Positions 737 to 24,081 of a stretch of DNA of 25,409 nucleotides are shown here, piece by piece (the stretch's first letter is position 1; every line of letters starts with the position of its first letter). This DNA comes from a virus. The stretch covers positions 1 to 25,409 of IMG/VR virus record IMGVR_UViG_3300037549_000148; one strand, given 5' to 3'. The notes beneath the pieces are model-generated. The model worked only from the letters and a program-made list of their open reading frames with translations, did no database searches and was not told where the DNA came from. The position numbers and the translations under genes are program-made.

Positions 737-826
737 TGGTCTAACAAGAAGGAGTTGAACCTCCGAAGCCCCGAAGGGCTCCAGTTTTACAGACTGGTGT
801 AGCTAACCGGCAGCTACCTTTGTTAG
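737..826 (-). tRNA. tRNA-Tyr (anticodon GTA)
   Basis: This is a class II tRNA with a long variable arm. Acceptor strands CTAACAA and TTGTTAG pair perfectly, followed by discriminator A and an encoded CCA (739-737). The anticodon stem CCAGT/ACTGG closes loop CTGTAAA, so the anticodon is GTA. The variable arm AGCCC-TTCG-GGGCT is a clear hairpin. The T-stem is GGAGG/CCTTC. The D-stem GTAGC/GCTAC is one pair longer than usual, and the base at position 8 appears to be A rather than the normal U. Confidence 0.85.
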
Positions 827-833
827 ATGAAAA

Positions 834-911
834 TGGTCTAGTAGGCAAGATTTGAACTTGCGTCCTTTCGCTTCCAGGGCGAACCGTCTGGCCAGGCTGA
901 CTTACTACTAG
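834..911 (-). tRNA. tRNA-Pro (anticodon TGG by geometry), with C at position 33
   Basis: Acceptor strands CTAGTAG and CTACTAG pair perfectly, with A73 and an encoded CCA (836-834). C1-G72 with A73 is the pattern of bacterial proline tRNAs. The D-loop AGCCTGGCCA has the invariant GG. The anticodon stem TTCGC/GCGAA closes the seven-base loop CCTGGAA, which puts TGG at 34-36. Position 33 is then C instead of the near-universal U. The T-arm is GCAAG, TTCAAAT, CTTGC. A serine reading (GGA) would restore a U before the anticodon but breaks the loop geometry and lacks the long variable arm. It is the first of three tRNAs in transcription order. Confidence 0.8.
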
Positions 912-1972: not shown

Positions 1973-4129
1973 TTAAGCAGCGCTCTGAACTTGGCTGAAG
2001 TTGAGGTTGAGTGGGATAAAGTACACAGCGGTAGCGAGCTTGATCTCAACTCCAACGTCCATTTCAGGACCACTGATGCTGACACTTTGGTTCTTGTAAC
2101 CAAGAGGAGCGTCGATGCTACCAGCGATCAATTTCAATTTCTTGTAGCCATCCATTTTCTGAGCTAGGTAGCTGAGAGCGGTAGCGGCGTCTACGTCGGC
2201 AAGAGACTTACCAACGAAGGCAACTTTGAAGCTTTGAGCTAGGTCTAGGGCGATAATGTCAGAGCAGTATACGGCCTGAATGCTGTTGTATACAAAGTTG
2301 GTGTCGAAACCGTAAGTGGTTTGGTCACTAACCCAGTATTCTCTCGTTGTGTCTTTCGACAAGAACAAGAGACCAGCGTTTAGAGCGTCTTCTACGTCAC
2401 CAGGACTTCCAGAATCGAATCCAACTGGATCGACATAGCTGATTACGTTAGCAGCCTTGTTGACGATAGCTTTGTAGAATCCACCAGCTTGCATACCGGC
2501 AGCGAGGCACGAGCCGTACCAAGGAAGGTACTGAGTGGCAACACCGACCGAGTTGTCTTGAACGATTTGTTGCATCGTAAGCGAGCAGCGATAATTGCCA
2601 AGACCTTGAGCAGCTTCTTTGCAATTATTGTAAGTATCATTGATCGACAAGATACAGATACGGTGCCTCTTGAGCTTTGGCGTACTGTACTGAATACAGT
2701 GACTCTTCACAGCTGCGTTAATGGCAGAGATCGTGTAGGTACTTCCGCTATCAGTATTCCCAGCAATGATATCTTGCGAAGAATCCTGAGAGAACAGGGG
2801 AACGATGATATTACACTGAATACCGGCAACTTGAGCTAGTGCGTTAACAATATCAGCTGACTGCGTGGCGCCGCGAGCGCCACCAGACAAGAATACTGCG
2901 TTAACCATTGGAGCAGGCAGACCAGCTTCTCCGGTAATAGCAGGAACAAAGTTAAGAGAAAGCGAGTTGGCGATAGCAGCTTGGAAATCAAAGGCAGATT
3001 TCTTGATGCGTCCTGGAGTAACACCGACAGCGCTAGAAGCGATGCCGATAGCTGTTACAAGGTCCAAAGTATTTTTTGGAGGCAATTGTTGAGCATTAGC
3101 AGCGCTTACGGCAGTATAGCCAGGTTGTGCAGAAATAAACGCAGCAAGATCAGAAATAGTTCTGTATTGCGAAAGGTCAATAGTAAGACTAGCGCCAATG
3201 CCGCCAGCTACAGTAGTAGTCAAAATACCGGCAGCCGAGATCGTCAGAGTACCGGTAGTACCTTGATAACCTACGAAAAGACCTATTACAGCATTTACGT
3301 CAATCGCTTCACTGACATTAATGTCAGGGCGAACGATACTAACTTCTACGCCAGGTTCTTGAGCAGACGCGAATACACCAGCGGGAAGACCTAGGGAAGC
3401 AAGGTCTCCAGGAGTAGAGTCAACTAGTTCAAGAGCTTTGCCCCAGCCTTTGCGATAAGCGCCAGCATCTGGACTTACATTAAGCTGAACGGAGCTAGGA
3501 GCAGAGCCAGCAGAGGCTACTACGCCAGCGGGAAGAACGGAGTTGAGTTCAACTACAAGGTGAGGAATAGTGTCGTGAGCGCCAGTGGTGCCGCTAAGGG
3601 CTACGGCGACTAGAGCGCCGCCATTGATTCTAACGCTAAAGGTAGCACCGTTAAGAGGTGCGCCAAGAGCAGGAATGGTACCGCCAGCTACTTCTGGAGC
3701 TGCTTCAACATTGATGGAGCTAATTTGGTACTTGTACAGATTACCAGGAAGACCCCAGTTTTTATCAAACAGGGTACCATAGTCAGTATCTACAAGGGCA
3801 GAAGCTTTCGTGCCAGAGTTCGTCTTAACGAGATACACAGCATTAGCGGTGCCCGTGATATCGGAATCGTTAGAAGGAGCCGACAGGGCGCGCATAGCAT
3901 CAACTAGCTGACCGCTGACATACATAGCTTGAACTTTGGCGAGCTGATCTGGAGTAAACTTGTTATTGGCCAATACTACGCTCTGGTAGCTAGGGCCACC
4001 GTCTGCTTCGCCAATAATAACGATGATACCCGAAGAACCGAGTCCTACTGGATTACTTTGTACAGTAATGTTAGGATAACTGTCAGGAATATTGGTATTT
4101 ACGAAAGATGTTACTAGTCTTAGTGACAT
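1973..4129 (-). CDS. Contractile tail sheath protein
   Basis: This 718-residue protein builds the outer contractile sheath of the tail. The N-terminus (about residues 20-50, with PNITVQSNPVGLGSSG then IIVIIGEADGGP) matches the usual opening of sheath proteins: a short extended arm, then a strand ending in a Gly-rich 'GEA.GP' turn. Residues of about 145-370 form a beta-rich, Ala/Gly/Thr-rich insertion, probably surface-exposed domains. The later part (about 400-610) fits the conserved sheath core, followed by a C-terminal subdomain (about 620-718) that in this family makes the inter-subunit and tube contacts. AAGGAG lies seven bases before the ATG, and the tube gene follows after 26 bp. The size is within the range for sheaths of large myoviruses. 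Confidence 0.9.
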   Translation of the reverse strand: MSLRLVTSFVNTNIPDSYPNITVQSNPVGLGSSGIIVIIGEADGGPSYQSVVLANNKFTPDQLAKVQAMYVSGQLVDAMRALSAPSNDSDITGTANAVYLVKTNSGTKASALVDTDYGTLFDKNWGLPGNLYKYQISSINVEAAPEVAGGTIPALGAPLNGATFSVRINGGALVAVALSGTTGAHDTIPHLVVELNSVLPAGVVASAGSAPSSVQLNVSPDAGAYRKGWGKALELVDSTPGDLASLGLPAGVFASAQEPGVEVSIVRPDINVSEAIDVNAVIGLFVGYQGTTGTLTISAAGILTTTVAGGIGASLTIDLSQYRTISDLAAFISAQPGYTAVSAANAQQLPPKNTLDLVTAIGIASSAVGVTPGRIKKSAFDFQAAIANSLSLNFVPAITGEAGLPAPMVNAVFLSGGARGATQSADIVNALAQVAGIQCNIIVPLFSQDSSQDIIAGNTDSGSTYTISAINAAVKSHCIQYSTPKLKRHRICILSINDTYNNCKEAAQGLGNYRCSLTMQQIVQDNSVGVATQYLPWYGSCLAAGMQAGGFYKAIVNKAANVISYVDPVGFDSGSPGDVEDALNAGLLFLSKDTTREYWVSDQTTYGFDTNFVYNSIQAVYCSDIIALDLAQSFKVAFVGKSLADVDAATALSYLAQKMDGYKKLKLIAGSIDAPLGYKNQSVSISGPEMDVGVEIKLATAVYFIPLNLNFSQVQSAA

Positions 4130-6329: not shown

Positions 6330-7067
6330 TTATTTGCTCCATTTAGCCAGAATTTCTGGTAGGAAGGTCTGTTCCCATTCTTTTTCTGCCCAAGCTTGTG
6401 CTTTATCCAAAAACTTTTTAGGCTGGTAGCCAGGATGCATCCACTTACCTGCGCTAGCTGGGCCGCTACTGACCGTCCTAAAGGTTAATATATCACGGCG
6501 CACGTTACCTGTTTTCGTAAGGGTCTGGTAGATGGACACGCCTTGAAGGACTGGAGTGTTACCTTTACCAGGGATTTCACCACCAAAATCCTTCCTATGA
6601 AGCAGGCCAGTTTTAGGCGAACCGTTAGGATTACTCTCTATTTTTTTGAATGGAATGCCTTCTTTCTTTAGAGCAGATTTAACCTGTTCTCGTAATTGAA
6701 ATTCGTACCCAGTAGAAGATGCTTTAGACTTATCCTTAGAAAAAGGAATGACTACAAACTTCTTTCCTTTAAGTAGGCCAGGCTTCATGTCCGTATTTGG
6801 CTCGATTCCCTCTTCGATCCACAAACCTTTTTGGTTAATGCTTACTACCCAAATACCAGGAGAAATGTCTTCCATCTCAACAGATTTAGAAAATGTTTTA
6901 AACGTGGGTGAACTTAGCTCTGCGCCTGCATCCATGAGGACGTGAGCTTTCGTCTGAGCAGCCAATCTAGCAACGCCTTTGTTGACATCCTGTGCTACTT
7001 CAGCAGCATATTCTTTTAGGGTATTAGCTAGGGCTGTAGTGTCTAATTTTATTTTTAGATTACTCAT
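6330..7067 (-). CDS. Head-tail joining or tail-completion protein, HK97-gp10-like candidate
   Basis: The protein has 245 residues. The N-terminal part (about 5-55) is an amphipathic helix with the pattern 'A..L..E.A..V..DV..GVARLAAQTKAHV', and the C-terminal part has GKWMHPGYQPKKFLDKA followed by a helix. A substrate-like loop between them ends in a beta strand carrying WVVSINQKGLWIEEG. This helix, strand, then 'hPG..p..Fl..A' arrangement is typical of the HK97 gp10-like family, which completes tails at the head-proximal end. The gene lies two bases from the upstream stop, with an AGGGG-type site inside that gene. Confidence is moderate because the family is recognised by pattern only. Confidence 0.65.
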   Translation of the reverse strand: MSNLKIKLDTTALANTLKEYAAEVAQDVNKGVARLAAQTKAHVLMDAGAELSSPTFKTFSKSVEMEDISPGIWVVSINQKGLWIEEGIEPNTDMKPGLLKGKKFVVIPFSKDKSKASSTGYEFQLREQVKSALKKEGIPFKKIESNPNGSPKTGLLHRKDFGGEIPGKGNTPVLQGVSIYQTLTKTGNVRRDILTFRTVSSGPASAGKWMHPGYQPKKFLDKAQAWAEKEWEQTFLPEILAKWSK

Positions 7068-7069
7068 CC

Positions 7070-8947
7070 TTACCCCTGCCCTTTAGATTGGTCGTCCTTT
7101 CCTCTAGAAGGAGGCTTAATTGGCACGCCTGTAGGGCTTTGTACCATGCCTTTCTTCCTATCTATGAAACGTGTATCGCCAGTCTTTGGATCGATAACTT
7201 TTTGTTGACCTTTAGCGTTTATCGCTCCTGGAGGCAAAGGAGTCCTAGCTACATGCTTGGTAGCTTTCGATGGCAGCTTGCCAATGGGTTGTCCCACTGG
7301 CGCTTTAGACTTTGGGGCGGGAGCAGCGCCCTCCGCAGACGCTGCGTGACCAGGTTTGCGCTCGCCGCCCTGATCTGGATGTTTAGGGAAAGGCTCTTGC
7401 CATTCATTGGCGGGAGCACCATTTTGGAGTTCATTAATGACTTGCTCGCCTTGAGGACCAATAGGGCCTTCAGATTCTGGAGAACCAGAGTTATCTAGTC
7501 CACATAGCTTACAAAGTTCAATCATAGCTTTCAGCATCATAATAGAAGCGTTGTAAAGAGTAGGGTCTTGCATCTTAGAATTCTCCAATGCCATTTTGGC
7601 ACCCTTGAATTGCTGTAGAGACTGTGACACCATTTGGACAACTTTATCTTTTTGAATTTCGTCTGATTGTTGGTCTAATCCTTCGCGCAATACAGCAGAA
7701 AGGTCTGGTTTTTTGTCCTCTGCCGCGTGTTCCCCATTTAATCCCATATCCGTTGCTGTGTTGGATTCAAAACCATCAGGCCTACTTATATTGCCTTCAG
7801 CGGCATTACCTACAACGTCTGTATCATCAATTTGAGCAGCCATAGCCTTTTCGTCTGGCTTGCCATCAATCGTTTCGCCCTCAATTTGCTGAGCAATAGC
7901 TTGCAAGTGCTCTTTGGAGTGGGCTCCTTCTTCTGGAATTGCAGCACCTTCAGGAGAAACGGCGTCGTTAGCCTGCATCTCGTCAGCGCCAGCACTGGCT
8001 GGAGCTACTGGTGCGCCAGCAGTGTTATCCATAGGGTTGGCCTGGCCAACACCAACTGGAGAAGAGTTATTCCCCATTTCTGGTTTACCATTTTGAGGAG
8101 GGTCCATGCCCATTTCATTAGCTTGAGCTTTTTCTTCAGCTGATCCAGCTGGAGCTTGAGCATTATTGGAGTCAGGAGATTGAATTTTTGTATTTTGCTC
8201 TGGATCTTGTTGACAAAAAGGACACGCTTCTGCGCCTTCTTCGGCTTCTTTACAGAAGGGGCAATCATCAGCAGGATCAAGAACAGCTTCTTCTTGACAG
8301 AAAGGGCAAGACTCTTCGCCTTCAGCTACGGCAGCATCATGGCAATATTTGCAATGGTCAGGATCAATACCATCGCTTTCTTCGCAGTACTTACAGTGTG
8401 ACTCTCCACCCTGCGGTGCCTCCACAGGAGGAGCTTTAGGAGCGTCTTTCTTCTCTTCTGGTTTTTTGTCTGCCATATTCTTACCCTCTGACTTTTCTAA
8501 GTATGCTTCAGCGAGTTTGTACTCTTCTTGAGTAGCTTTACCTTTCTTAACTCTCTTTCTTGCATCATCAATATCTTTTTCTACATCTTTACCATAGAAC
8601 GCAGTTTGGTTTTTGCCCCGAAACTTAGCAGCCAACAGAGCACGACCGCCTTCAGAAAGGCTTTCACCGACACCAACGGAAATAGTGATTCCAGTAGCAT
8701 ACTCATGATCTTTTCTGAGACGTTCAACATCTTTAACCGCATCTTTTGGTACTTTGAAAGACCCTTCATCACCGCCACCTGAAATTACTTTGCCACCGTG
8801 CTCTGCTACCCAATGATTTACGATCTGGTGACCTAGATCGATCTTGGCAGAAATGTCATGTAGGGCCTTCTCATCATTGGCAATAATAGCGCGACCAACT
8901 TTTTTGCCACAGCCATCGCCATCGTAGCTCAGATAAAGCTTACTCAT
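7070..8947 (-). CDS. Multidomain virion-cluster protein: mCpol/GGDEF-like palm domain plus five CxxC knuckles
   Basis: The protein has 625 residues. Residues 1-120 look like a nucleotidyl-cyclase/polymerase palm of the mCpol-GGDEF group: a first strand with the Asp pair in YDGDGCGKKVG (D9, D11), a helix NDEKALHDISAKID, a hairpin SGGGDEGSF (G57-G59, D60, E61), then TISVGVG and the closing LLAAKFRGKNQTAFYG. All expected metal-binding acids are present. A KSE motif follows at 152-154. Residues 185-245 hold five CxxC pairs (C185/188, 199/202, 214/217, 229/232, 242/245), probably zinc knuckles. The rest (about 250-625) is Pro/Gln/Ala/Glu-rich and mostly disordered, with one helical patch near 440-490. 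AGGAGG lies just before the ATG, which overlaps the upstream gene by 8 bp. Enzymatic activity and product are unknown. Confidence 0.8.
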   Translation of the reverse strand: MSKLYLSYDGDGCGKKVGRAIIANDEKALHDISAKIDLGHQIVNHWVAEHGGKVISGGGDEGSFKVPKDAVKDVERLRKDHEYATGITISVGVGESLSEGGRALLAAKFRGKNQTAFYGKDVEKDIDDARKRVKKGKATQEEYKLAEAYLEKSEGKNMADKKPEEKKDAPKAPPVEAPQGGESHCKYCEESDGIDPDHCKYCHDAAVAEGEESCPFCQEEAVLDPADDCPFCKEAEEGAEACPFCQQDPEQNTKIQSPDSNNAQAPAGSAEEKAQANEMGMDPPQNGKPEMGNNSSPVGVGQANPMDNTAGAPVAPASAGADEMQANDAVSPEGAAIPEEGAHSKEHLQAIAQQIEGETIDGKPDEKAMAAQIDDTDVVGNAAEGNISRPDGFESNTATDMGLNGEHAAEDKKPDLSAVLREGLDQQSDEIQKDKVVQMVSQSLQQFKGAKMALENSKMQDPTLYNASIMMLKAMIELCKLCGLDNSGSPESEGPIGPQGEQVINELQNGAPANEWQEPFPKHPDQGGERKPGHAASAEGAAPAPKSKAPVGQPIGKLPSKATKHVARTPLPPGAINAKGQQKVIDPKTGDTRFIDRKKGMVQSPTGVPIKPPSRGKDDQSKGQG

Positions 8948-9929
8948 GCTTCCTCCTGAGTACTTCTAGAAGCATCTCGATGTTTTCTTCATCCCAACCT
9001 TTACTAAATCTTACTTTTATTCCATCTTCACTTTTCTTAATGAAAACTTTGCGTTCCATGTCATCGCCTAGACAGACGCAGCCAGAAAATACTTGGCCAT
9101 TGAAAATATTCTTACCACAATCGGGGCAATCAACCTTTTCACTTTTAGCCATGTGAACAGAGTATTCGCCTTTTTTGAGCTTTCTAGACTCAAGGAAGTC
9201 CTTTACGGGAGACCCCTTCTTTTTTGGCGCTTCAACAAAGTTAGGCTCTTTTTTATGAACCACGGCATTCGCTACCTCGATTCCATTGGTTATACCGCGA
9301 AAATACGGCTCAGACTGAGGAGCAGAGTGTTCTGCGAGGTGTCTTAAGTCTGCAATCTGTTTATGCTTCTTTTTCTCAGCTTCCAATTCTTCAGTTAGCT
9401 TCATCAAGAAAAAGTTGTGAGCAGCTTGCTGATGGGCTAACTTCTTTTCCACTACTTTTTCTACAAGGTCATGGAGTGCAAAACGCTCGTCGATTAGCTT
9501 TTGTACTTTTTGCTCAATGTCTTGTGCTACTGGTGATTCTTTATGTAGTTCCTGTGAGTCGTACAGCTCAAAAGCAGACATAATCACTAGGCCTAGACCG
9601 GGGATAGAGCGAAATTTGAAATCTACAAGTATCTTGTGATCTTCTACAACTTCTCCGCTATACTGATCTCGCTCGTGCTTCGTGGCCTTGAGAACAGCAT
9701 TTCCAGGAACAGGAATTTTTACTTCCTTATTCTCTCCAATGTTCATTGGAGCAAGCTCTCTAATAAGGAATGACATGATAGTGCGAGGGACAATTTTCAG
9801 TCCGATACGCATATCATCAATATCATTTACACTTTTTGTACCCGGTTTCCATAGCTCGGTTTTGGCCAAAGACTCCATAAAGTCTTCGCCCAAAGTCTTC
9901 TCTAGAAAATAGGTAACTCTAGAAGACAT
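8940..9929 (-). CDS. Virion-cluster protein with coiled coil and C-terminal zinc ribbon
   Basis: This 329-residue protein has an alpha/beta N-terminal half (about 1-130, with MRIGLKIVPRTIMSFLIREL and a strand VDFKFRSIPGLGLVIM). A long charged helix likely to form a coiled coil follows (about 135-200, including EELEAEKKKHKQIADL), then a basic linker and a C-terminal zinc-binding segment with C268-x-x-C271 and C284-x-C286. Three motif hits of the K-(S/T)-E type are present: LAKTE (22-26), MAKSE (260-264) and IKKSE (297-301). The last two flank the zinc ribbon, so cleavage there would release it. It overlaps the palm-domain gene by 8 bp and is probably translationally coupled to it. Function unknown; a structural or capsid-internal role is inferred. 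Confidence 0.7.
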   Translation of the reverse strand: MSSRVTYFLEKTLGEDFMESLAKTELWKPGTKSVNDIDDMRIGLKIVPRTIMSFLIRELAPMNIGENKEVKIPVPGNAVLKATKHERDQYSGEVVEDHKILVDFKFRSIPGLGLVIMSAFELYDSQELHKESPVAQDIEQKVQKLIDERFALHDLVEKVVEKKLAHQQAAHNFFLMKLTEELEAEKKKHKQIADLRHLAEHSAPQSEPYFRGITNGIEVANAVVHKKEPNFVEAPKKKGSPVKDFLESRKLKKGEYSVHMAKSEKVDCPDCGKNIFNGQVFSGCVCLGDDMERKVFIKKSEDGIKVRFSKGWDEENIEMLLEVLRRKHE

Positions 9930-12209: not shown

Positions 12210-13040
12210 TTATTTCCCGTTTTTTACCGCGTAAGCGTGTCGTATACCCTTTTCCATACAGAGCTTGAGCATTTCTGCATCATTTCCAAAGTGGAACTTC
12301 GCTCTTTCCTCATGCTTTTGCATGACCTCTTCTTTCAGTCCAGGGTTATCTTCCAAGTAACGAACTAGCTCGCTGTCTCCTAATCTAGTGACCTTGACAT
12401 GTTTTACAAGGTCCAATTCTAACGAAACCGTATCTCTGACTATGCTCGGAATCATGCTTTCCGAAGCAGCTAGCTTATCTTCCTCTTCTGCTTCAAACTG
12501 ACCAGGTAGCCTAGCGTGCTTTGGTCGGTAACTTGCTACCACTTTAGCTTTATGGTGAAGTTCAGCTGGTAGAAACTCTATACCAAGTACATGAGCAGAT
12601 TTTGACTCAGACTCTTTCACGCGATCCCAGAGTTCTTTGTCCACTGAAATATGGGCCGCAAACTGGTAATTGTTGTGATAACCTAAGTGTTTAAAACAGT
12701 CGTGACTCTCCTCAATATCCTTTATCTCAGGTCCATGTAGTTTCAGTACATAGATCGTGTACCCCGTTCTCCCTTGGATAGTCGTGGTCTCAACCTCGAC
12801 TTTCTTTGGATCTGGCGGTACAAGTGCCAGTGTTTTAGCTATTTCATGAACCTCTTCTTCCTTGTCCTTTTCTGCGTCAAAAAGCTTTATCGTTACGTGA
12901 TACAAAATTCCTATGTCTGGCCTATCGCTTACACCCTTCACTCTAACGGGATACATTAAATCCATTCCCTTTTCCGCAAACTTTTTGTAAGTTTCAGCGT
13001 CTTCGTTCTTATGAAGATATATTGGTAAAATGTTTTCCAT
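12210..13040 (-). CDS. 2H phosphoesterase-like protein
   Basis: This 276-residue protein carries the two signature motifs of the 2H phosphoesterase superfamily (LigT, cyclic phosphodiesterase, anti-CBASS Acb1): YHVTIKLF with H48-x-T50, and FAAHISVD with H130-x-S132, 82 residues apart, each at the end of a hydrophobic strand. Family members hydrolyse 2',3'- or 2',5'-phosphodiester bonds in RNA ends or cyclic nucleotides. Residues 180-276 add a charged helical extension not expected for the minimal domain. AAGG is distant from the ATG, and a TATAAT on the minus strand (about 13055-13050) lies nine bases upstream, so an internal promoter is possible. Substrate unknown; an Acb1-like role is one option, RNA processing another. 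Confidence 0.75.
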   Translation of the reverse strand: MENILPIYLHKNEDAETYKKFAEKGMDLMYPVRVKGVSDRPDIGILYHVTIKLFDAEKDKEEEVHEIAKTLALVPPDPKKVEVETTTIQGRTGYTIYVLKLHGPEIKDIEESHDCFKHLGYHNNYQFAAHISVDKELWDRVKESESKSAHVLGIEFLPAELHHKAKVVASYRPKHARLPGQFEAEEEDKLAASESMIPSIVRDTVSLELDLVKHVKVTRLGDSELVRYLEDNPGLKEEVMQKHEERAKFHFGNDAEMLKLCMEKGIRHAYAVKNGK

Positions 13041-14356: not shown

Positions 14357-14479
14357 CTTGTATTTGCTCCCAAATCGGTGTATTCTAGGGTTAAGATTGG
14401 CACAAACTACCTAGAAGTGAGTTAAACGTAGCATTTTAATAGGTATTTAGGATTGCTTAGGCATTTAAAGGAGATACAC
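14357..14479. promoter_or_regulatory. Divergent intergenic region
   Basis: These 123 bp separate the leftward late operon from the rightward diphosphohydrolase gene, so both should have promoters here. I see only weak candidates: on the minus strand TAGTTT with TAGAAT 16 bases apart, and on the plus strand TTAAAC with TATTTA. A strong AAAGGAGA ribosome site for the rightward gene is at about 14467-14474. Confidence 0.35.
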
Positions 14480-14920
14480 ATGTCAGATGGTCAAAATAAG
14501 GACACGAACCCTAATCCAGCCCCCGCTCTTGGAACCAATCCAAAAGATTTATTGGGGATCAAAAAAGTACAGCTTAACCTAGTACCTGCATCAAGTATCA
14601 TTTATCAAGCTCTGGCCATGGAAGATGGGGCACGCAAATATGGACCCTATAACTGGCGTGCGAACAAGGTAATTGCCTCTATTTATGTCGCCGCAGCTAT
14701 GCGTCATCTTCAAGCTTGGTACGATGGTGAGCAGGTGGCCTCTGATAGCCAAAAGCCTCACCTAGGGCATGCCCTGGCCTGCATAGGCATCATCGTAGAC
14801 GCTCTTGAGACTGGCAACCTGGTAGACGATCGCCCTCTTCCCGGCGCCGCAGGTAAGCTCATTGCCGAATGGGAAGAAAAGAAGGCTGCCGCAGCTAAGG
14901 CGTCTCCCTCAAAAAGCTAA
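14480..14920 (+). CDS. dATP/dGTP diphosphohydrolase-like protein (MazZ/DUF5664 type)
   Basis: The start is placed at 14480 because AAAGGAGA lies five bases before this ATG; an upstream ATG at 14453 has no such site. The 146-residue protein has the hallmark order of the DUF5664 family: NPKDLLGIKKVQLNLVP (20-36), GARKYGPYNWR (50-60), AMRHLQAWYDGE (73-84) and HLGHALACIGIIVDALE (94-110). The family is an all-helical relative of MazG nucleotide pyrophosphohydrolases and is thought to cut dATP or dGTP to the monophosphate. In phages that replace adenine with 2-aminoadenine it belongs to the Z pathway. No PurZ or DatZ gene is in the window, so that link is unproven. The C-terminus is an Ala/Lys tail. 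It is the lone plus-strand gene within a minus-strand block. Confidence 0.85.
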   Translation: MSDGQNKDTNPNPAPALGTNPKDLLGIKKVQLNLVPASSIIYQALAMEDGARKYGPYNWRANKVIASIYVAAAMRHLQAWYDGEQVASDSQKPHLGHALACIGIIVDALETGNLVDDRPLPGAAGKLIAEWEEKKAAAAKASPSKS

Positions 14921-14977: not shown

Positions 14978-16903
14978 TTATGGGGCTTTTGTTACTGCGT
15001 TGCTGTCTAGGGTTACTGCAGTCTGAGCGTACAGGTGTCCACTAAAAGCGGCGTTCGTTTGAAGTGCGAGAGAGGTTGCTCCAAGCACGATACCTTTGAA
15101 TACTGCGTTTGCGCCAATAGTCATAGCGCCCGATAGTTGCCAGAAGATATTTTCTGCTTTCACACCGCCGCTGAGAATAACGCTCTTAGCAGATGCCATG
15201 GTAAGAGTACCAGAAATCTGCATGATGAAAACATCATTTGGTCCACCAGAAATCGTCACGTCATTGGAGATCGTAACACCGGTAGTCCACTTATAAAGAC
15301 CTGGAGTAAGAGTAAGTCCACCGATTTCACCAGAACCTAGGTTCGTGAAATCTGGAGAAGTTCTTCCGGCAGCATTAGTATAAGCAGCATTCATGTCGCT
15401 GATAGCTTGAGTCAACGCAGCAGGGGTAGCATCTGCGTAGTCAGCAGCATATACTTTTCCTGGCGAAACTACTTTGGCAGAAGTTGAGAAATCACCACTA
15501 CCATCTAGTGTTAGCGAGAAGCCAGTGATCGCGGTGTGAGCGATAGGGCTCACGGCCATGTTACCGGTGATAACCGATGCACCAGCATCAGAAATACCAG
15601 CTTCCGATAGAATCGTGTAGTTGGCAGCAGTCAATAGGTTAACAGCGGCCAATGCGTTAGAAATGTTTAGAGACAGACTGTCTGCGCTGAATGGAAGCGT
15701 TCCGCCACCACCAGAAGTATCTGCTTTGGTAGCTCGCAAAGTTTTATTACCATAAAGGCTAACATTGAGTCCTTTACCGGCAAAGTTGGCCACGCCAGCT
15801 ACTGCAGCCATCGACACAGTTCCTGCGAGAGCGCCAGTACCAGTTAAAAGGCTAATCGTAATAACCGCAGTTGCATCTGCGCCAATAGTAACGGTAGCAC
15901 CACTAGCATCTTTTACAGTAATTACAGGCTGAGTAGCAAATGCTACGCCTTGTTGAGCAGAAGAAGGCTGCGTAGACCACACAAGGTGAGTTGCAACGCC
16001 AGCGCTGCCAGTAATCACGTAAGAGTAGCTTGCAACGGCAGAGTTGCCGCCATTTGGATCAACTGATAGAACTTTCAGCGTCAAACTAGAGCCAACCGAA
16101 ATTGGAGCAGAGTATTGAGGACTAGCAAGGCTAGGAGCGCTACCATCTACAGTGTAGTAAAACAAAGTGCCTGGAGTAAGCGAAGAAAGTACTACGGACT
16201 GAGTACCAGAGTAAGAGCCAGCAGGAAGGTTGGAAATAGGAAGTGCGATTACACCAGAAACAGCAGAGACAGAGGCGCCGTTAGCAGTAGCATCTACGCC
16301 AAGCACGTTGCTATTGATAGCAGCGGCAGTTTTCACAGCAATTGCAGCGGCAGAGTCGTTAGCTAGAATGTTTACTTGAACGCCAGTAAATCCAGCAGGA
16401 GCTGGGTCTGTGTTCGATCCGCCAAGAACGTTGTACCAAACATAATATTGATTTGCGTTGCCGCCGTTATATAGTTCGACATAGCCAGCTGCTCCAGAAG
16501 AGGAGAAGGCGCTACCGGCAGGATACGACAAGGCAGCAATTTGTTGTTGGCCAGAGCGCATATTGGATGCGCTAAAACCAGCAGGCATAGCTACGGCTAC
16601 TGGAGGGTTGATAATGTTGGCAGGGTTAGCCAAAAGATTTGCTAGAGCGTCGTTGGCGGCAGGAGCATTTGCGAAACCATCAACCATGTACTGAAGGTCT
16701 CTTGGGGTAAGAGCATAGCCACCTAAGATGGCAGCTTGAATGTCATTAGCTACAACTTTGTCACCCATTGCAATCACTAGCCTTTTAAGGGTATCAGGTG
16801 AAAGCAGAGCGCTACTTGCAAAAGCAGCGGCCAATTCGTTACCGGCTACCTTATCTGTAAGGGCGTCGATAAGAAAAATAGTGGAATTCTTAGATAGGGC
16901 CAT
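14978..16903 (-). CDS. Virion surface protein with C-terminal DUF3494 ice-binding-type domain
   Basis: The protein has 641 residues and shows a domain series. Residues 8-92 hold three degenerate helical repeats of about 30 residues (DKVAGNELAAAF, DKVVANDIQAAI, NAPAANDALANL), a probable virion anchor. Residues of about 150-220 match a small domain seen in phage structural proteins (YYVWYNVLGG, then DPAPAGFTGVQVNI). Residues 228-298 resemble the chitobiase-type 'FYYTVDGSAPS' domain. Residues 305-395 are an Ig-like domain. Residues 417-641 fit DUF3494: ITGNMAVSPIAHTAITGF, GGLTLTPGLYKW, NIFWQLSGAMTIG, and the closing LYAQTAVTLDSNAV. DUF3494 proteins form a beta-solenoid that binds ice or acts as an adhesin. 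AAGGAG precedes the ATG. A role as fibre or surface adhesin is inferred. Confidence 0.85.
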   Translation of the reverse strand: MALSKNSTIFLIDALTDKVAGNELAAAFASSALLSPDTLKRLVIAMGDKVVANDIQAAILGGYALTPRDLQYMVDGFANAPAANDALANLLANPANIINPPVAVAMPAGFSASNMRSGQQQIAALSYPAGSAFSSSGAAGYVELYNGGNANQYYVWYNVLGGSNTDPAPAGFTGVQVNILANDSAAAIAVKTAAAINSNVLGVDATANGASVSAVSGVIALPISNLPAGSYSGTQSVVLSSLTPGTLFYYTVDGSAPSLASPQYSAPISVGSSLTLKVLSVDPNGGNSAVASYSYVITGSAGVATHLVWSTQPSSAQQGVAFATQPVITVKDASGATVTIGADATAVITISLLTGTGALAGTVSMAAVAGVANFAGKGLNVSLYGNKTLRATKADTSGGGGTLPFSADSLSLNISNALAAVNLLTAANYTILSEAGISDAGASVITGNMAVSPIAHTAITGFSLTLDGSGDFSTSAKVVSPGKVYAADYADATPAALTQAISDMNAAYTNAAGRTSPDFTNLGSGEIGGLTLTPGLYKWTTGVTISNDVTISGGPNDVFIMQISGTLTMASAKSVILSGGVKAENIFWQLSGAMTIGANAVFKGIVLGATSLALQTNAAFSGHLYAQTAVTLDSNAVTKAP

Positions 16904-16950: not shown

Positions 16951-17658
16951 TTAAGATTGTGTCGGCAAGTCTACTACGTAGCTTTCGCCTTCCTTAACAA
17001 TCCTTGTAAACCCTGGATATCGTTGACCATATCGTCCATCCAGGCTAGAAGCGTTAACAAATAATCTGTCCATGAAATACGTGTGACCAGCACCTTCGTG
17101 AATGTGTCCAAAAACGTGCATTTTTACCTTAGTTTCTAGGATTTTGTTCCATAAATCCACGCAGCCCACGTTTTCGTGGCCTTTGCCGCCATGATTATGC
17201 CTACGAGGTGCTTCATCTCTCATTTTATGGGGAGGCCCATGCGTTACCAGTACATCGGTATCATTTGGGATCAAGTCCCAGTGTTTCTTGATATCTTCTC
17301 CACGATTTCGGTTAAAAGCCCAGTTACAAAACTCTGGCTGCACAGGCGAACCCCAAAATTTGATACCCTCTAGTTCTACACCAGAATCGTTCAAAAGATG
17401 GATATTCCTAGACTCACACTCTTTGGCCCAAAGTTGAGGCTTAGTTTCATAGCCCCAATCATGGTTTCCAGCAATTAGGACCAAGTGCTTATAGTCCTGT
17501 TTTTGGAACCAATCAAGAAACTGTGTAATTTCCTCATCAGAGCCACGACCAGTAGCGTCACCGGCATGAATGAGAATGTCGCCACCGGGCAACTTTAGGT
17601 TGTCGTGACGCATATGCGTATCAGAGATACAGTCTATTTTTAAACCTTGCAATTCCAT
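16951..17658 (-). CDS. Calcineurin-like metallophosphoesterase
   Basis: All five metallophosphoesterase motifs are present in this 235-residue protein: SDTHMRH (D13, H15), HAGDATGRG (D34), GNHDW (N65, H66), VTHGPP (H140) and FGHIHEG (H185, H187). The pattern resembles the MPPED/class III cyclic-nucleotide phosphodiesterase-like group, which acts on phosphomono- or diesters with two metal ions. The substrate cannot be told. The gene lies between the capsid operon's terminator and the adhesin gene, with its own extended -10 box (TGATATAGT) only six bases before the ATG and no ribosome site, so its message may be leaderless. It appears to be an independent unit rather than a structural gene. Confidence 0.9.
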   Translation of the reverse strand: MELQGLKIDCISDTHMRHDNLKLPGGDILIHAGDATGRGSDEEITQFLDWFQKQDYKHLVLIAGNHDWGYETKPQLWAKECESRNIHLLNDSGVELEGIKFWGSPVQPEFCNWAFNRNRGEDIKKHWDLIPNDTDVLVTHGPPHKMRDEAPRRHNHGGKGHENVGCVDLWNKILETKVKMHVFGHIHEGAGHTYFMDRLFVNASSLDGRYGQRYPGFTRIVKEGESYVVDLPTQS

Positions 17659-17727: not shown

Positions 17728-19125
17728 TTAGGTAGGGTTATTGAGGCTTAGTTGGCCCGTAATGTTCTCTACGAGAACGTTCTTACGAGGTTGGTAAGCA
17801 GCCAAGCTGAGGAAGCGAAAGTGGGCTTCAGGCAAGCTGAGGTCACTAACGGCAAGTTTCAGTTTGGAGTAGGGAGCCAATTGGCCGAATCCCATGGTGT
17901 TACCTTGAACGAGGAATCCAGTTACGGAACCAGGTTGACGGTTACCAAGGTCGGAGAAGGTAGCACCAGAGCCAGCAGCGTTTACGGCGATCTTACCTAC
18001 GAACTTGGCAGTAGCTGCCGAGCCGTTAAGGTCAGAACGGTATACGTTGAAGTACTGAGCAGCACCAGAGATCACGATCTGAACTTTGTCACCAGCGGTT
18101 ACAGCTTGCGAAGCAGCAGCAGAAGGGATCGATTCACCACGAATACTGCAAGCAGTAACGTAATAAACATACGAACCAGTCTGGAGCAACGAACCAGCAG
18201 CACCGGCATCCGAGATCGAAAGCGTAGGAGCAGCAGGGCTGCCATTGCGCGAACGAGCAGGACGGGTTTTGCCAGACAAGAAACGCGAAGCTTCGAGAGA
18301 AACTACAGCACTAGAGGTCCACTGGGTACGCAGGTGCGCGCCAGTTGCTTCTTGCGCCGAGCCAGCGAGCATGATACGCTCTTTAGCATGGGCGATCTTG
18401 TTATAAGCCGAGAGGCTGATAGGGTCGAGCATAAGACGGTCAGCAGCACCCATGTTCATTGCAGAGCGTACTGCGGAGTCTTCGATGATGGATTGCGTGA
18501 GCGTTCCACCGGCAGAGATCACTACAGTTTGGTCGGAACCATACTCAGCAAACATAAGGTCTTGCGTATTTTGTTGGCCATCAGACTGACGAACTTGTTG
18601 GTCCATACCAATCATGTTAGGCATCTTAGCAACAGCGAGGGGGTTACCATCGAATACACCAGCGTTTGAGAAGTCGGATTGACCACGGAAGCAGTCAAAT
18701 TCGATATCCCCAGCTAGCTTCATTGCAGCGTCTGCGGCAGCACGGTCTTCAGCTTTTACACCGTCGAAAGCACCGATCAGGTTAGCGGCAACAGTAACAC
18801 GACGGGTCGTGCTGTAGTATGCCATAGGCACTACTGCACGGACGTAATTACTTGTGTCTTCTTCGCCGATTCCACCTTCAAACTGAGCAGAACCTCCAAA
18901 TACACCGTAGTCGAGCTGACGGTTGAACTGGTGCAATTGCGACTTCACATCTTTCGATGGAAGCATCTTTTGCAACTTGATATGGCTGTCGTCGAACGTT
19001 ACATTGTGCATGACGGGGGAAAGGTCTTCCACCATCAAAGCAGCGCCTTGTACTAGTTGACCTGGAGCAGCATTGTAACTACCTGCTTCAAGTGCTTTCA
19101 TTAGGGATTGAAGTTGTTCAATCAT
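17728..19125 (-). CDS. Major capsid protein with Ig-like insertion
   Basis: This is the likely major head protein, HK97-fold type. I prefer the second ATG (19125, 465 residues), because AAGGAG is eight bases before it but only two before the first ATG at 19131. Numbering below counts from the first ATG. The N-terminal arm (about 11-50) contains GSYNAAPGQLVQGAALMVED, typical of capsid proteins of large phages. Residues 50-290 cover the E-loop and P-domain. Residues of about 300-400 are an inserted Ig/FN3-like domain (TGSYVYYVTA, RGESIPS, FNVYRSD, TFSDLGNRQPGS). The A-domain end follows. No K-S-E motif is present, so the protein may not be trimmed. It is the last gene of a three-gene operon after the scaffold. 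Confidence 0.9.
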   Translation of the reverse strand: MIEQLQSLMKALEAGSYNAAPGQLVQGAALMVEDLSPVMHNVTFDDSHIKLQKMLPSKDVKSQLHQFNRQLDYGVFGGSAQFEGGIGEEDTSNYVRAVVPMAYYSTTRRVTVAANLIGAFDGVKAEDRAAADAAMKLAGDIEFDCFRGQSDFSNAGVFDGNPLAVAKMPNMIGMDQQVRQSDGQQNTQDLMFAEYGSDQTVVISAGGTLTQSIIEDSAVRSAMNMGAADRLMLDPISLSAYNKIAHAKERIMLAGSAQEATGAHLRTQWTSSAVVSLEASRFLSGKTRPARSRNGSPAAPTLSISDAGAAGSLLQTGSYVYYVTACSIRGESIPSAAASQAVTAGDKVQIVISGAAQYFNVYRSDLNGSAATAKFVGKIAVNAAGSGATFSDLGNRQPGSVTGFLVQGNTMGFGQLAPYSKLKLAVSDLSLPEAHFRFLSLAAYQPRKNVLVENITGQLSLNNPT

Positions 19126-19154
19126 ATTCATTTCTCCTTGATTACTTCCACTGC

Positions 19155-20132
19155 TTACTTGAGCAAATGGCTGATACTGTTAATGCTTGCACCGCTGAGG
19201 TAGTAAGCGTTGATTAAATCTCGTTCTGACTTTTCTAGCTTTGGGTCCATGGACTTTTTGCCTAGAGCTGCATCGATCTCACCTTTGGTAAGTACTTTTT
19301 CTTCTACGGTGTTTTCGCTTTTGGCGATAACTTCCATCGAAGTAATTGCTTTACCTTGGGGTGCGACTTTCTTCTCAACCAATTTGGTCAGGAATGCCGT
19401 TACCGCGTCTAAGTTTTTTTGAAGGCCTTCACCTTTAGCTTTTTGAGCTTCTAGTTCAGACTTAACAAGTTCTAATTCTGTTTTTTCCATATTTCCCTCT
19501 GACTTATGAAGTCCTACATTGATCTTGTCGCCATGAGCGTCACTGGCAGCGCTTTTAGCCCCAGGAGTAGCTTTTAGAGGTGCGGCTTCAATTTTTCCAC
19601 CGTTTTCTCTTTTTAAAGCATCTTCACTCTTTTGAATTGCTGGCTGAACATTATTGTCTGGTGAGTTCTGCAGAGCAGCTTTTGGCTCTGCTTCAGACAT
19701 TTTCATGTTCGCGCCGCCGCCACATTTGGCTAGTTTTGCAATACAGTCATGGTGAGCCTTTAGTTCAGGTTCACTCATAGACATGTACATCTTTTCCATA
19801 TGTGCCAAGTCTTCTGAATCGTAATCGCAACCAGCGGCCTGTGCAGGAGGAGCAGCGGCATCAGCTTGAGGAGCTGGAGCAGCTTGAGCAGCGGGAGCAG
19901 CAGCTTCGGGCTTATGTTCACCCTCAGCAGGAGCTTTCGCTTCTGGAGCAGGTGCTTTTTCGCCTTCTGGCTTCTTCTCTTCTGGCTTCTTCTCTTCTTT
20001 TTTAGGCTCTGGCTTCTTTTCGCCATCTTCAGATTTAGCAAGTTTGAAGTTTTCTTCAGCCTTAGCTAAATGCGAAGTAAACTCTGTTTCCACTTCGGAA
20101 ATGAGCTTTTCGAGCTGTTGTTCGGTGTACAT
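19155..20132 (-). CDS. Scaffold / prohead core protein
   Basis: This 325-residue, K/E/P/A-rich protein directly precedes the major capsid gene, the classic scaffold position. Residues 36-100 are low-complexity (runs of PEEKK, then Ala/Pro/Gln), and the C-terminal third is helical. The motif hydrophobic-x-K-S-E occurs six times (KSE at 33, 168, 210, 224, 271 and 300), plus MEKTE at 215-219 and LAKAE at 22-26. These spaced sites fit destruction of the scaffold by the prohead protease encoded divergently nearby. The tail 303-325 (RDLINAYYLSGASINSISHL) is probably the capsid-binding end. AAAGGAG lies seven bases before the ATG. Identification rests on position and composition. Confidence 0.8.
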   Translation of the reverse strand: MYTEQQLEKLISEVETEFTSHLAKAEENFKLAKSEDGEKKPEPKKEEKKPEEKKPEGEKAPAPEAKAPAEGEHKPEAAAPAAQAAPAPQADAAAPPAQAAGCDYDSEDLAHMEKMYMSMSEPELKAHHDCIAKLAKCGGGANMKMSEAEPKAALQNSPDNNVQPAIQKSEDALKRENGGKIEAAPLKATPGAKSAASDAHGDKINVGLHKSEGNMEKTELELVKSELEAQKAKGEGLQKNLDAVTAFLTKLVEKKVAPQGKAITSMEVIAKSENTVEEKVLTKGEIDAALGKKSMDPKLEKSERDLINAYYLSGASINSISHLLK

Positions 20133-21338: not shown

Positions 21339-22724
21339 ATGACTTCGTGTACATATATCGATGGCATCGCGTCTTCTCAAGCTATTGATACTGCTGGAGA
21401 AGTCGTTGATCTTAAGGGATTAGATTGTTCTTCCCTATTGGGCGCCGCGCTCAATTGGGAGCACAAAAGTGACACTCCTGCCCAAGTGGTTGGTAAAATC
21501 CTTGAATTTAAAAAGATTTTTTCAGACAAAGACTGCGACAATGAGCGCCAGCGCTATTACTGGAACAAATATCAGATTCCTTATCTATATATTCTAGGTA
21601 GACTGTTTGATGATAAGAAAGACTCTTCGAGGGAAGCCGCAGCGATATTCTTAGATGATGCTCAAAATCCAAACGAACCAAAGATGGTGGGATTCAGCGT
21701 AGAAGGCTCCAAAATTCCTGGTGCCAAAGAAGGCATGGTCCTTACTCGTTCAATCGCTCGCAAAGTCACCATCACCACAATTCCAGCTAATAAGACCTGC
21801 GTCGCAGAGATGATTCCTTCGCCTCATGCCAAGAAGGACGATCTAGACTCTATTTTTAAGACAGAATCTACGCAAGTAGAATTCTTCAGTCCTAACTCTA
21901 AATACTTAGATTTCTTACAGAAAAAAGAAGAAAATATGGATAAAAATGAAGATTCCTCGGACATGAACAAATCCATTCCTTCTGGCTGGAAGCCAAGCCT
22001 CACTCAGCACTCTCAGCTTGGCCAGATTGCATCCCTATCCCATCCTGAGCATGGCATCGTTACAGTTCACAAAAATCCAGAAACCGGAAATCATGAAGTA
22101 AAACACCGTGGTGCTCTAGCTGGAGTAATGGGACAGAAAGGTGTTTTTGGCAATGCGAAAGATGCAATGGCCCATGCTTCCAAGTATGTAAACGCTGTAC
22201 ATAGCGGTAAAGTAATACCTAGAACTCAGGTAAACATGCCTTCTAGTGATAAACTACCTAACGCTCAGTTAGGTGGAAAACATGTTAGTAAAGCACCAAA
22301 TCTAGCTAAAGCGATTGATGCTGGATCTGGCAATGTCGCCCCAGGCCAACTAACTGGTGGTTCCGCTTTAGTATCTGAAAGCCTTGGTGGAAGGATGCAG
22401 AGAAAGAAAAAGAGCATATCCGTAACTACTGGATCTGGCAATATGGGTGGTATGGGCGGAACGCAAGGTGGTATGGGCGGAATGGGCGCCATGGGCGGTA
22501 CCGGTGGTGGCGGAACGGCCAAATCTGAATGGCTAAAGCGAGCTGAAGACGCCTACTCTAGTTGGGAAAAGCGCGAAGAATTTAGAAGTTTCATGAAAAA
22601 GAGTATGCCAAACATGGTTAAAGGCGAGATAGACGCTATTGGTCAAGTAATCGCCCTGAAAAAGTCATTAGAAAACGAAGAAAGTCTGGAAAAAATGTTC
22701 TCCGAATACTTTACAAAAGAATAG
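21339..22724 (+). CDS. Prohead maturation protease with long C-terminal extension
   Basis: The protein has 461 residues. Residues 1-165 fit the herpesvirus-assemblin-like phage prohead protease fold: start DTAGEVVDLKGLD, catalytic His in NWEHKSD (H42), nucleophile Ser in VGFSVEGS (S120), and RKVTITTIPAN. A linker (166-215) has IFKTE (172-176), a possible self-cleavage site. Residues 215-292 form a small alpha/beta domain of unknown function. Residues 324-353 copy the N-arm of the major capsid protein. Residues 366-392 are Gly/Met-rich. After a K-S-E at 395-397, a helical module (400-461) resembles the 94-residue protein at 4141. It therefore appears to combine protease and internal scaffold. 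AAAGGA lies five bases before the ATG, and a terminator follows. Confidence 0.85.
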   Translation: MTSCTYIDGIASSQAIDTAGEVVDLKGLDCSSLLGAALNWEHKSDTPAQVVGKILEFKKIFSDKDCDNERQRYYWNKYQIPYLYILGRLFDDKKDSSREAAAIFLDDAQNPNEPKMVGFSVEGSKIPGAKEGMVLTRSIARKVTITTIPANKTCVAEMIPSPHAKKDDLDSIFKTESTQVEFFSPNSKYLDFLQKKEENMDKNEDSSDMNKSIPSGWKPSLTQHSQLGQIASLSHPEHGIVTVHKNPETGNHEVKHRGALAGVMGQKGVFGNAKDAMAHASKYVNAVHSGKVIPRTQVNMPSSDKLPNAQLGGKHVSKAPNLAKAIDAGSGNVAPGQLTGGSALVSESLGGRMQRKKKSISVTTGSGNMGGMGGTQGGMGGMGAMGGTGGGGTAKSEWLKRAEDAYSSWEKREEFRSFMKKSMPNMVKGEIDAIGQVIALKKSLENEESLEKMFSEYFTKE

Positions 22725-22895: not shown

Positions 22896-23669
22896 ATGAT
22901 TTGTCTAAACGGTTTTACCGTCACGCCCACTATCTTCCCCGATAATACCTCTCAGGTATGGAAGCTTCCGGCAGATGTCCTCGCCACCGACTACGCCTTC
23001 ATAGATTGGACCTTTACCACAGAAGGTGATATTGTTCAACTTGCACAATTGAAGGATCTTCTAGACTCCCACGAAATACCCTCATGTCTACGCATCAGAT
23101 ACCTACCTTATGGTCGTCAAGACAAGGCTGTGTCCAATGATGCTACCTTCGCACTGCACTCTTTCGCCAAACTCCTAAATCGACTCTATTTCGATTGCAT
23201 CGAGATTATCGATCCACACAGCTACATAGCTACGGACCTGATTAAGAATTCTGTAGCAATTCAATCTACTACACTATCTAAAATCTGGAACGATGGTGAA
23301 TACGATATCGTCTGCTACCCTGATAAGGGAGCATTGACAAAATACTCTAAAATTTATGACTTCCCATTCCTCTATGGGGAAAAGGTTCGTGACCAGTCTA
23401 CTGGAAATATCACGAAATACGAAGTTATCGGTGATCCCGCAGGCAAGAAAGTCCTTATTGTGGACGACATTTGCGATGGCGGCATGACCTTCAAGATTTT
23501 GGCCAAGGATCTCTTGGCTAAAGGTGCTAAAGAGGTAAATCTCTTTGTCACGCATGGCATTTTTTCGAGAGGATTGAAAACTCTTAAGGATGCTGGCATT
23601 AACCGTATTTTCGCTCAAGATGGTGAAGCGTCAGAGGTTCAAGGTACTGTCGTTTATGTTAAAATGTAG
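22896..23669 (+). CDS. Ribose-phosphate pyrophosphokinase-like protein (Prs, or Adps of a NARP1 pair)
   Basis: The 257-residue protein belongs to the PRPP-synthetase family. Residues 68-77 RYLPYGRQDK match the ATP-binding loop region. IIDPHS (104-109) supplies the metal and ribose contact. VLIVDDICDGGMTF (186-199) is the PRPP-binding signature, and VTHGIF near the end is also conserved. It is shorter than cellular Prs (about 310 residues) and phage-type. The enzyme transfers pyrophosphate from ATP to ribose-5-phosphate. In NARP1 phages a homologue (Adps) acts on ADP-ribose instead. The NAMPT-like gene that follows supports an NAD-related job. Sequence alone does not tell the two substrates apart. 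AAAAGGAG precedes the ATG. Confidence 0.85.
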   Translation: MICLNGFTVTPTIFPDNTSQVWKLPADVLATDYAFIDWTFTTEGDIVQLAQLKDLLDSHEIPSCLRIRYLPYGRQDKAVSNDATFALHSFAKLLNRLYFDCIEIIDPHSYIATDLIKNSVAIQSTTLSKIWNDGEYDIVCYPDKGALTKYSKIYDFPFLYGEKVRDQSTGNITKYEVIGDPAGKKVLIVDDICDGGMTFKILAKDLLAKGAKEVNLFVTHGIFSRGLKTLKDAGINRIFAQDGEASEVQGTVVYVKM

Positions 23670-24081
23670 TGCCTGTAATGAAATAAAAGACTTTGAAGAG
23701 TTTTCTCGTAATAAATCGAGAAGATACGGAAGAAATTGCGTCTGTAAGAAATGTATAAATGAAAATGAAAGCTACAAGGAAAAGAAAAGTAAATACAACA
23801 AGTCTGCCAAAGGGCAAACTTCGTATTTTAAAAGTCATTTAAAAAAGAAATTTCAAATGACAATTGAACAGAAACTACAAATGTTCAACAATCAAAATGG
23901 ATTGTGTGAAATGTGCGATAGACCTTTCAAGGATTTGAAATCTGCGTGCGTCGATCATAATCACGAAACTGGACAAAAAAGAGGTCTTCTTTGTAAACCA
24001 TGTAATACTTTTCTTGGTATTATTAAAGAAGATTCAACAAAAATAAAGACTTATATAGAGAAATATAAGTCTCAACTATAG
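23656..24081 (+). CDS. Recombination endonuclease VII-type (HNH/treble-clef) protein between prs and nampt
   Basis: I place the start at 23656 (141 residues), 14 bases inside the end of the prs-like gene, because it begins directly with a zinc finger: C4-x-x-C7, C30-x-x-C33. Longer starts only add sequence shadowing the prs frame. The C-terminal half is the endonuclease VII core: LCEMC (C84, C87), VDHNHETG (D100, H101, N102, H103) and GLLCKPCNTFLGIIKE (C113, C116). T4 gp49 is the model for this family, which resolves branched DNA. Free-standing small forms with extra zinc fingers are often homing-type. The gene is AT-rich. It separates two genes that act in one pathway, so it looks like an insertion. 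The ribosome site is weak. Confidence 0.85.
   Translation: MLKCSACNEIKDFEEFSRNKSRRYGRNCVCKKCINENESYKEKKSKYNKSAKGQTSYFKSHLKKKFQMTIEQKLQMFNNQNGLCEMCDRPFKDLKSACVDHNHETGQKRGLLCKPCNTFLGIIKEDSTKIKTYIEKYKSQL

Follow-up and report, generated by a model that had tools for sequence, protein, structure and literature searches.

An mCpol-type nucleotidyl cyclase palm, predicted to be active, in a structural-operon protein of SPO1-like myophages

Why should a large group of tailed phages carry, among its head and tail genes, a domain of a family with which bacteria make an anti-phage signal, and may these phages bring their own signal-maker into the host? The question is raised by a 625-aa protein encoded in a viral DNA stretch of 25,409 nucleotides (IMG/VR record IMGVR_UViG_3300037549_000148). 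This whole stretch, referred to here as the window, is the entire virus record, and the phage genome is therefore incomplete. In the available parts of two Panoptes studies, mCpol is described as a host immune enzyme of bacteria and archaea whose product acts as a decoy that the cell monitors, and the Panoptes effector as one that is triggered when its cyclic nucleotide is lost (PMC12657218, PMC12657230). GGDEF domains have already been proposed in phage-delivered proteins (PMC5512222). A phage mCpol is apparently new, to the extent that absence, which is weak evidence, can tell: the available parts of PMC12657218 and PMC12657230 name no phage form, and none was found in the open-licence literature searched. 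If a conserved, mostly intact mCpol sits in a phage structural operon, phages would use host immune chemistry, probably delivered at entry.

The gene is located on the minus strand (8947 to 7070), where its open reading frame was confirmed. It starts with ATG, with AGGAGG close on the 5' side, and belongs to a run of mostly minus-strand genes between those for an SPO1-like major capsid protein and a tail sheath. The following features define this setting.

7070..8947, minus: whole gene, 625 aa, with mCpol palm, CxxC-rich linker, helical hairpin and C-terminal beta element (open reading frame; orthologues at the equivalent place in Mx1 and viral contigs)
8940..9929, minus: upstream neighbour, 329 aa, overlapping the palm gene by 8 bases and conserved together with it
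6330..7067, minus: downstream neighbour, 245 aa, which served as bait and tree marker (phrog_16819, E=3.7e-6)
1973..4129, minus: tail sheath (phrog_279, E=6e-28)
17728..19131, minus: SPO1-like major capsid protein (phrog_752, E=6.7e-42; 51% identity to Mx1)
19155..20132, minus: scaffold-like protein with six KSE motifs (position and Mx1 counterpart)
21339..22724, plus: head maturation protease (phrog_1028, E=2.3e-7; 38% identity over 183 aa to the putative prohead protease of Mx1)

A sequence-only reading of this DNA had likened the N-terminal part of the protein to the palm domains of mCpol and GGDEF proteins, with the metal-binding acids intact. All of the motifs it quoted were found in the 625-aa protein (YDGDG with D9 and D11, GGGDEGSF with D60, TISVGVG and KFRGKNQTAFY), and the likeness is supported by sequence profile and predicted structure, since an HMM search and a structure superposition both gave matches to palm cyclases. 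The residues concerned are as follows.

8597..8935, minus: mCpol palm domain, residues 5-117 (PF18182, E=9e-14; OptS structures by Foldseek)
8921..8923, minus: catalytic Asp D9, KpOptS D6 (OptS alignment; invariant in all 42 intact palms, since this is how intact was defined)
8768..8770, minus: catalytic Asp D60, KpOptS D57 (OptS alignment; likewise invariant by definition)

Residues 5-117 scored 52.3 bits with the Pfam mCpol family PF18182 (E=9e-14; cut-off 26.4), and the NCBIfam mCpol model NF033576 also matched (E=2e-12, 47.8 bits; cut-off 40). When the PDB was searched with the single sequence, OptS/mCpol entries were the sole significant matches (E about 3e-7); a profile built from 32 phage relatives retrieved OptS with E-values of 9e-21 and 8e-20, far ahead of a GGDEF protein (0.0017). 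A Pfam scan of the 625-aa protein gave mCpol and a weak Cas10 palm, and PF00990 (GGDEF) was absent from it. For an AlphaFold2 model of residues 1-160 (mean pLDDT 92.5, pTM 0.85), the top Foldseek ranks were the OptS crystal structures 9PD0, 9MNR and 9NWN. Over these entries the TM on target is 0.84-0.91 and the rmsd 1.5-2.1 Å, with about 0.90 and 1.5-1.8 Å for the top superpositions; GGDEF domains, other cyclases and Cas10/Csm1 rank below them. According to the available parts of PMC12657218 and PMC12657230, KpOptS uses D6 and D57 as catalytic residues and contacts the base through S30 and N34; in the alignment these correspond to D9, D60, S33 and D37 of the phage palm, respectively. The Ser of the first base-contact position is kept as S33; the equivalent of N34 is D37 here and varies across phages. 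These results indicate that the N-terminal domain, as judged from sequence and model, is a genuine mCpol palm nucleotidyl cyclase that is predicted to be active.

The likeness to Panoptes OptS/mCpol (PDB 9MNR, 9PD0, 9NWN) comprises the domain family, the predicted fold and the aligned catalytic Asp pair and conserved Ser. However, OptS is a stand-alone defence enzyme with a membrane effector, whereas the phage palm is one domain of a 625-aa protein with no effector, and KpOptS N34 is replaced by D37. GGDEF cyclases and the Cas10 palm belong to the same palm superfamily, and intact GGDEF genes occur in Mx1-type relatives, but the phage palm profile is that of mCpol, not GGDEF, and a Cas10 context is absent.

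When the full-length protein was compared with named phages by plain tblastn, no match emerged. The orthologue in an isolate, Myxococcus phage Mx1 (OR576727), was reached through synteny alone; it is a 468-aa gene at the equivalent place (33963-35369) with a degenerate palm. Viral contigs were fetched with the neighbouring genes, and not the palm, as bait, and the palms were then collected with an HMM of the domain. This yielded 52 distinct phage palms, Mx1 among them, and in most of the phages so fetched the palm lies at the equivalent place in the interval from capsid to tail sheath. The structural-operon setting claimed from the sequence alone is hence backed by synteny over dozens of phages, and by profile, predicted structure and synteny the palm domain is carried by a core structural-operon protein of an SPO1-like myophage group.

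Both D9 and D60 are retained in 42 of the 52 palms. All 42 of these intact palms also have D11, K108 and G111, and 41 have S33. Position 37, the base contact N34 in KpOptS, is variable among them (N in 12, D in 11, E in 5, Q in 4, and others), so that the product is not readable from sequence. Close pairs show purifying selection (L044-L045, pN 0.047 vs. pS 0.63), and two silent changes separate the palm domain of the window from that of L002; the misregistered pair L015-L057 was left out, and in the dN/dS comparisons with L001 and L003, silent sites were saturated. On the bacterial side, an mCpol search gave one plasmid match, in Sulfitobacter, and 58 genomes of one phylum held no mCpol locus except in a bog Deltaproteobacteria MAG itself, the source of the only two loci in the genome scan. 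Because both of these loci have the phage gene context (the palm, then the same C-terminal parts, and the same upstream neighbour), they were taken as phage contigs binned there. In L065 (6205-7986), about 197 codons of extra open frame precede the palm; they include an EF-hand-like DQNKDGLVTHD stretch and have no Pfam match.

The distribution of palms that have lost the active site bears on whether catalysis matters. In a 60-row tree built from the downstream neighbour, 14 rows form one clade (support 100/99), and the palm was typed in 13 of them. Seven of the 13 have lost D9, D60 or both (Mx1, L066, L075, L092, L094, L097 and L107), compared to three of 39 outside the clade (L102, L106 and L108, all with NGD in place of DGD), where 36 are intact. 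A PF00990 GGDEF gene was found in eight phages, all in the 14-row clade (L066, L073, L075, Mx1, L099, L101, L104 and L105), and the GGDEF motif is present in all four of the GGDEF proteins read. Parsimony gives six changes in total and, once one NGD group and one palm-less group are subtracted, about four separate changes, of either direction, inside the clade. Fisher tests gave p=0.018 for large contigs and p=0.001 for the clade vs. the rest, neither being corrected for kinship; the GGDEF association comes from one clade only, and several dead-palm contigs are fragments that end short of the GGDEF position. On the 64 kb contig L094, the palm is dead and no GGDEF was detected. The concentration of losses in the clade holding all GGDEF phages suggests that catalysis, and not the fold alone, is selected. 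In the simplest interpretation, a second cyclase eased the demands on the first, and what selection acts on is catalysis. In a further clade (L021, L022 and L023), the gene and its CxxC part are kept and the palm is gone; the large contig of this clade has neither palm nor GGDEF, which implies that the function is dispensable.

The same pattern weighs on the possibility that the palm survives as a relic with a structural or sensory role, in which the fold is kept, maybe for nucleotide or metal binding in the head or neck, and catalysis is unimportant. The gene persists in Mx1 and other phages whose palm is dead, and in L021-L023, which have no palm; this fits a relic and implies that the remaining parts of the protein have a role of their own. 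A relic is harder to reconcile with a full active site in 42 of 52 palms over wide divergence, or with the clustering of losses alongside a second cyclase, which would not be expected from a role in structure alone; we consider it unlikely. The isolate to which these observations point is Mx1 (L006), with its dead palm and a motif-intact GGDEF enzyme gene beside the capsid gene (protein WNM70324; 17173-17904, between the genes for prohead protease and capsid protein). At the GGDEF loci L087-L089, the gene adjoins one for a kinase-like protein.

Evidence that the palm might be virion cargo is indirect. The sequence-only reading had pointed to a KSE tripeptide, located at 152-154 as claimed, as a place where the palm might be separated from the rest during head maturation.

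8486..8494, minus: KSE 152-154, a candidate site for the head protease, where the folded N-terminal part stops (KSE enrichment in the window and concentration in the Mx1 structural block; model confidence falls here)

The window proteins contain 14 KSE tripeptides, compared to 2.8 in shuffles (maximum 8 in 500), and the scaffold-like protein whose gene adjoins that of the capsid protein accounts for six of the 14. Mx1, a complete genome, has 17 in its structural block (11,045 aa; 2.8 expected) and 2 in the remaining 36,876 aa (7.7 expected). Among K-x-E tripeptides, KSE also ranks first by enrichment in most of the relatives tested, the exceptions being L034, L101, L104 and L108. This pattern of concentration in the sequences is as would be seen for a head-protease recognition site. 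A precedent is phage SPN3US, whose head protease has AXE as its motif, likewise short and with E as its last residue, and whose packaged proteins are ejected into the host (PMC10052503), but the use of KSE in the phage palm protein rests on statistics, not mass spectrometry. The proposal that KSE frees the palm thus gains from the concentration in the Mx1 structural block and loses at the exact site, which reads KAE, KAE and KNE in the three nearest relatives and others farther out; as the tripeptide is not strictly conserved, cleavage at this place is hypothetical. A nested gene starting at the Met after KSE (LEKSEGKNM) was considered and rejected, as this Met occurs only in the closest relatives and two of these have a poor ribosome-binding sequence ahead of it.

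The structural block of Mx1 also encodes a 1479-aa polyvalent protein (24404-28843), which has GNAT (acetyltransferase), ART-PolyVal and NUDIX domains and KSE at 309, 608, 955 and 1253, the first, second and last of which are outside its domains. Polyvalent phage proteins carry enzymes, including GGDEF, that have been proposed to be delivered to the host at invasion (PMC5512222). The presence of the ART-PolyVal/NUDIX/GNAT protein of Mx1 in the same block as the palm gene is a point of likeness. In contrast, mCpol is not among the domains in PMC5512222, and the palm gene is a conserved, syntenic part of the structural operon.

The remainder of the 625-aa protein contains three further features.

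8213..8395, minus: five CxxC pairs, residues 185-245, possible metal sites (sequence; unfolded in the model; 0-6 pairs in relatives)
7505..7702, minus: helical hairpin, residues 416-481 (model confidence mostly 70-90)
7133..7225, minus: C-terminal beta element, residues 575-605 approximately (model confidence near 85 for most of its length)

The CxxC pairs, described in the earlier reading as zinc knuckles, are real and begin at C185, C199, C214, C229 and C242, with a sixth, separate pair at C479. They are bare repeats, 13-15 residues apart, in an acidic linker for which the full-length model gives no fold (pLDDT about 40-53); the CCHC spacing CX2CX4HX4C was not found, and many relatives with an intact palm have no such pairs. 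The zinc-knuckle assignment was consequently dropped.

We propose that the palm is virion cargo: carried on a structural protein, cut free and delivered, it would make a cyclic dinucleotide and thereby dampen the signalling immunity of the host. As a whole, this explanation stands at about an even chance of being right. Its steps would be as follows. The C-terminal parts would anchor the 625-aa protein in the head, and the head protease would cut at K-S/A/N-E right after the palm. The freed palm, of about 154 residues, would go into the host with the DNA and dimerise like OptS; early in infection it would make a cyclic dinucleotide from ATP and/or GTP, as the intact active site and the pattern of losses suggest. 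The product would then interfere with host nucleotide-signalling immunity, either by keeping a Panoptes-type effector off once the host signal has been depleted by the phage's own sponges or phosphodiesterases, or by serving as a decoy or as a cyclic dinucleotide signal of altered form. The first option is in line with the available parts of PMC12657218 and PMC12657230: since the Panoptes effector fires on cyclic nucleotide loss, a nucleotide-depleting phage would profit from its own synthase. Given the apparent replacement by GGDEF, the product may be c-di-GMP-like and its target another cyclic dinucleotide pathway. If true, the virion-cargo explanation predicts virion-borne cyclic nucleotide synthesis as a counter to Panoptes or CBASS.

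Structural operons are usually expressed late. This favours an enzyme that works late in the producing cell, for example on host c-di-nucleotide levels or as a guard against co-infecting phages, and not at entry. The fusion of the palm to the conserved C-terminal parts of a structural-operon protein, the KSE pattern and the full synteny with neck and head genes all argue against such a late role, which we regard as improbable, to the same degree as the relic. Delivery of the palm with the virion is the reading retained here. A fuller version of it is doubtful, if somewhat better placed than either of these alternatives: a host-family synthase, injected as cargo, would hold up the inhibitory signal watched by Panoptes from the onset of infection, while a 2H phosphoesterase or sponges disarm CBASS-type signals, GGDEF having taken over in one clade and the mCpol site having decayed several times.

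The candidate phosphoesterase is encoded in the same operon.

12210..13040, minus: probable 2H phosphoesterase, HxT at 48 and HxS at 130 (both motifs in orthologues; weak PDB and Pfam matches to 2H enzymes)

Its two HxT/S motifs are 82 residues apart, with a spacing of 80-83 in 24 orthologous sequences. The PDB matches are weak but convergent (1VDX, 2FYH, 2D4G and Acb1 7T26), and the Pfam matches, also weak, are to LigT_PEase and Acb1 (the latter with E=0.088 and 2 members only). From its sequence, the product is probably a 2H phosphoesterase. It shares with Acb1 (anti-CBASS, T4 gp57B) the two HxT/S motifs of the 2H superfamily, and Acb1 is among its weak profile matches; its identification as Acb1 itself was rejected, since hhalign against T4 Acb1 was not significant (probability 2%). 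A search for the Acb1 family over the genomes gave no match anywhere, controls included. In several relatives the protein is extended C-terminally, with weak similarity to SLT transglycosylases. Hairpin proteins of the Acb2/Tad1 type, a family assignment that does not tell Acb2 from Tad1, were seen in 3 of 17 large relatives (L128, L129 and L130), all with intact palms, and this is no evidence of linkage to the palm.

A phage-borne, Panoptes-like defence against rival phages, to which the enzyme family shared with OptS might point, is very improbable, as ten nearby proteins gave no Pfam match to OptE-like, CARF-2TM or SAVED-2TM genes, no membrane segment is predicted in the immediate neighbours of the palm gene, and the adjacent membrane effector of Panoptes OptSE, be it OptE (S-2TMbeta) or CARF/SAVED-2TM, was not found next to the phage gene.

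Several other genes of the window were noted. Two tRNA genes, for Tyr and Pro, are located at 737-911 (minus). The structural operon also encodes a 641-aa protein (14978-16903, minus) with a C-terminal ice-binding domain (PF11999, E=4e-68) after chitobiase/Fn3-type domains; the ice-binding-like domain is possibly a particle decoration. Genes were also observed for a dATP/dGTP diphosphohydrolase-type protein (14453-14920, plus), a calcineurin-like phosphoesterase (16951-17658, minus), a phosphoribosyl pyrophosphate synthetase-like protein (22896-23669, plus) and endonuclease VII (23590-24081, plus).
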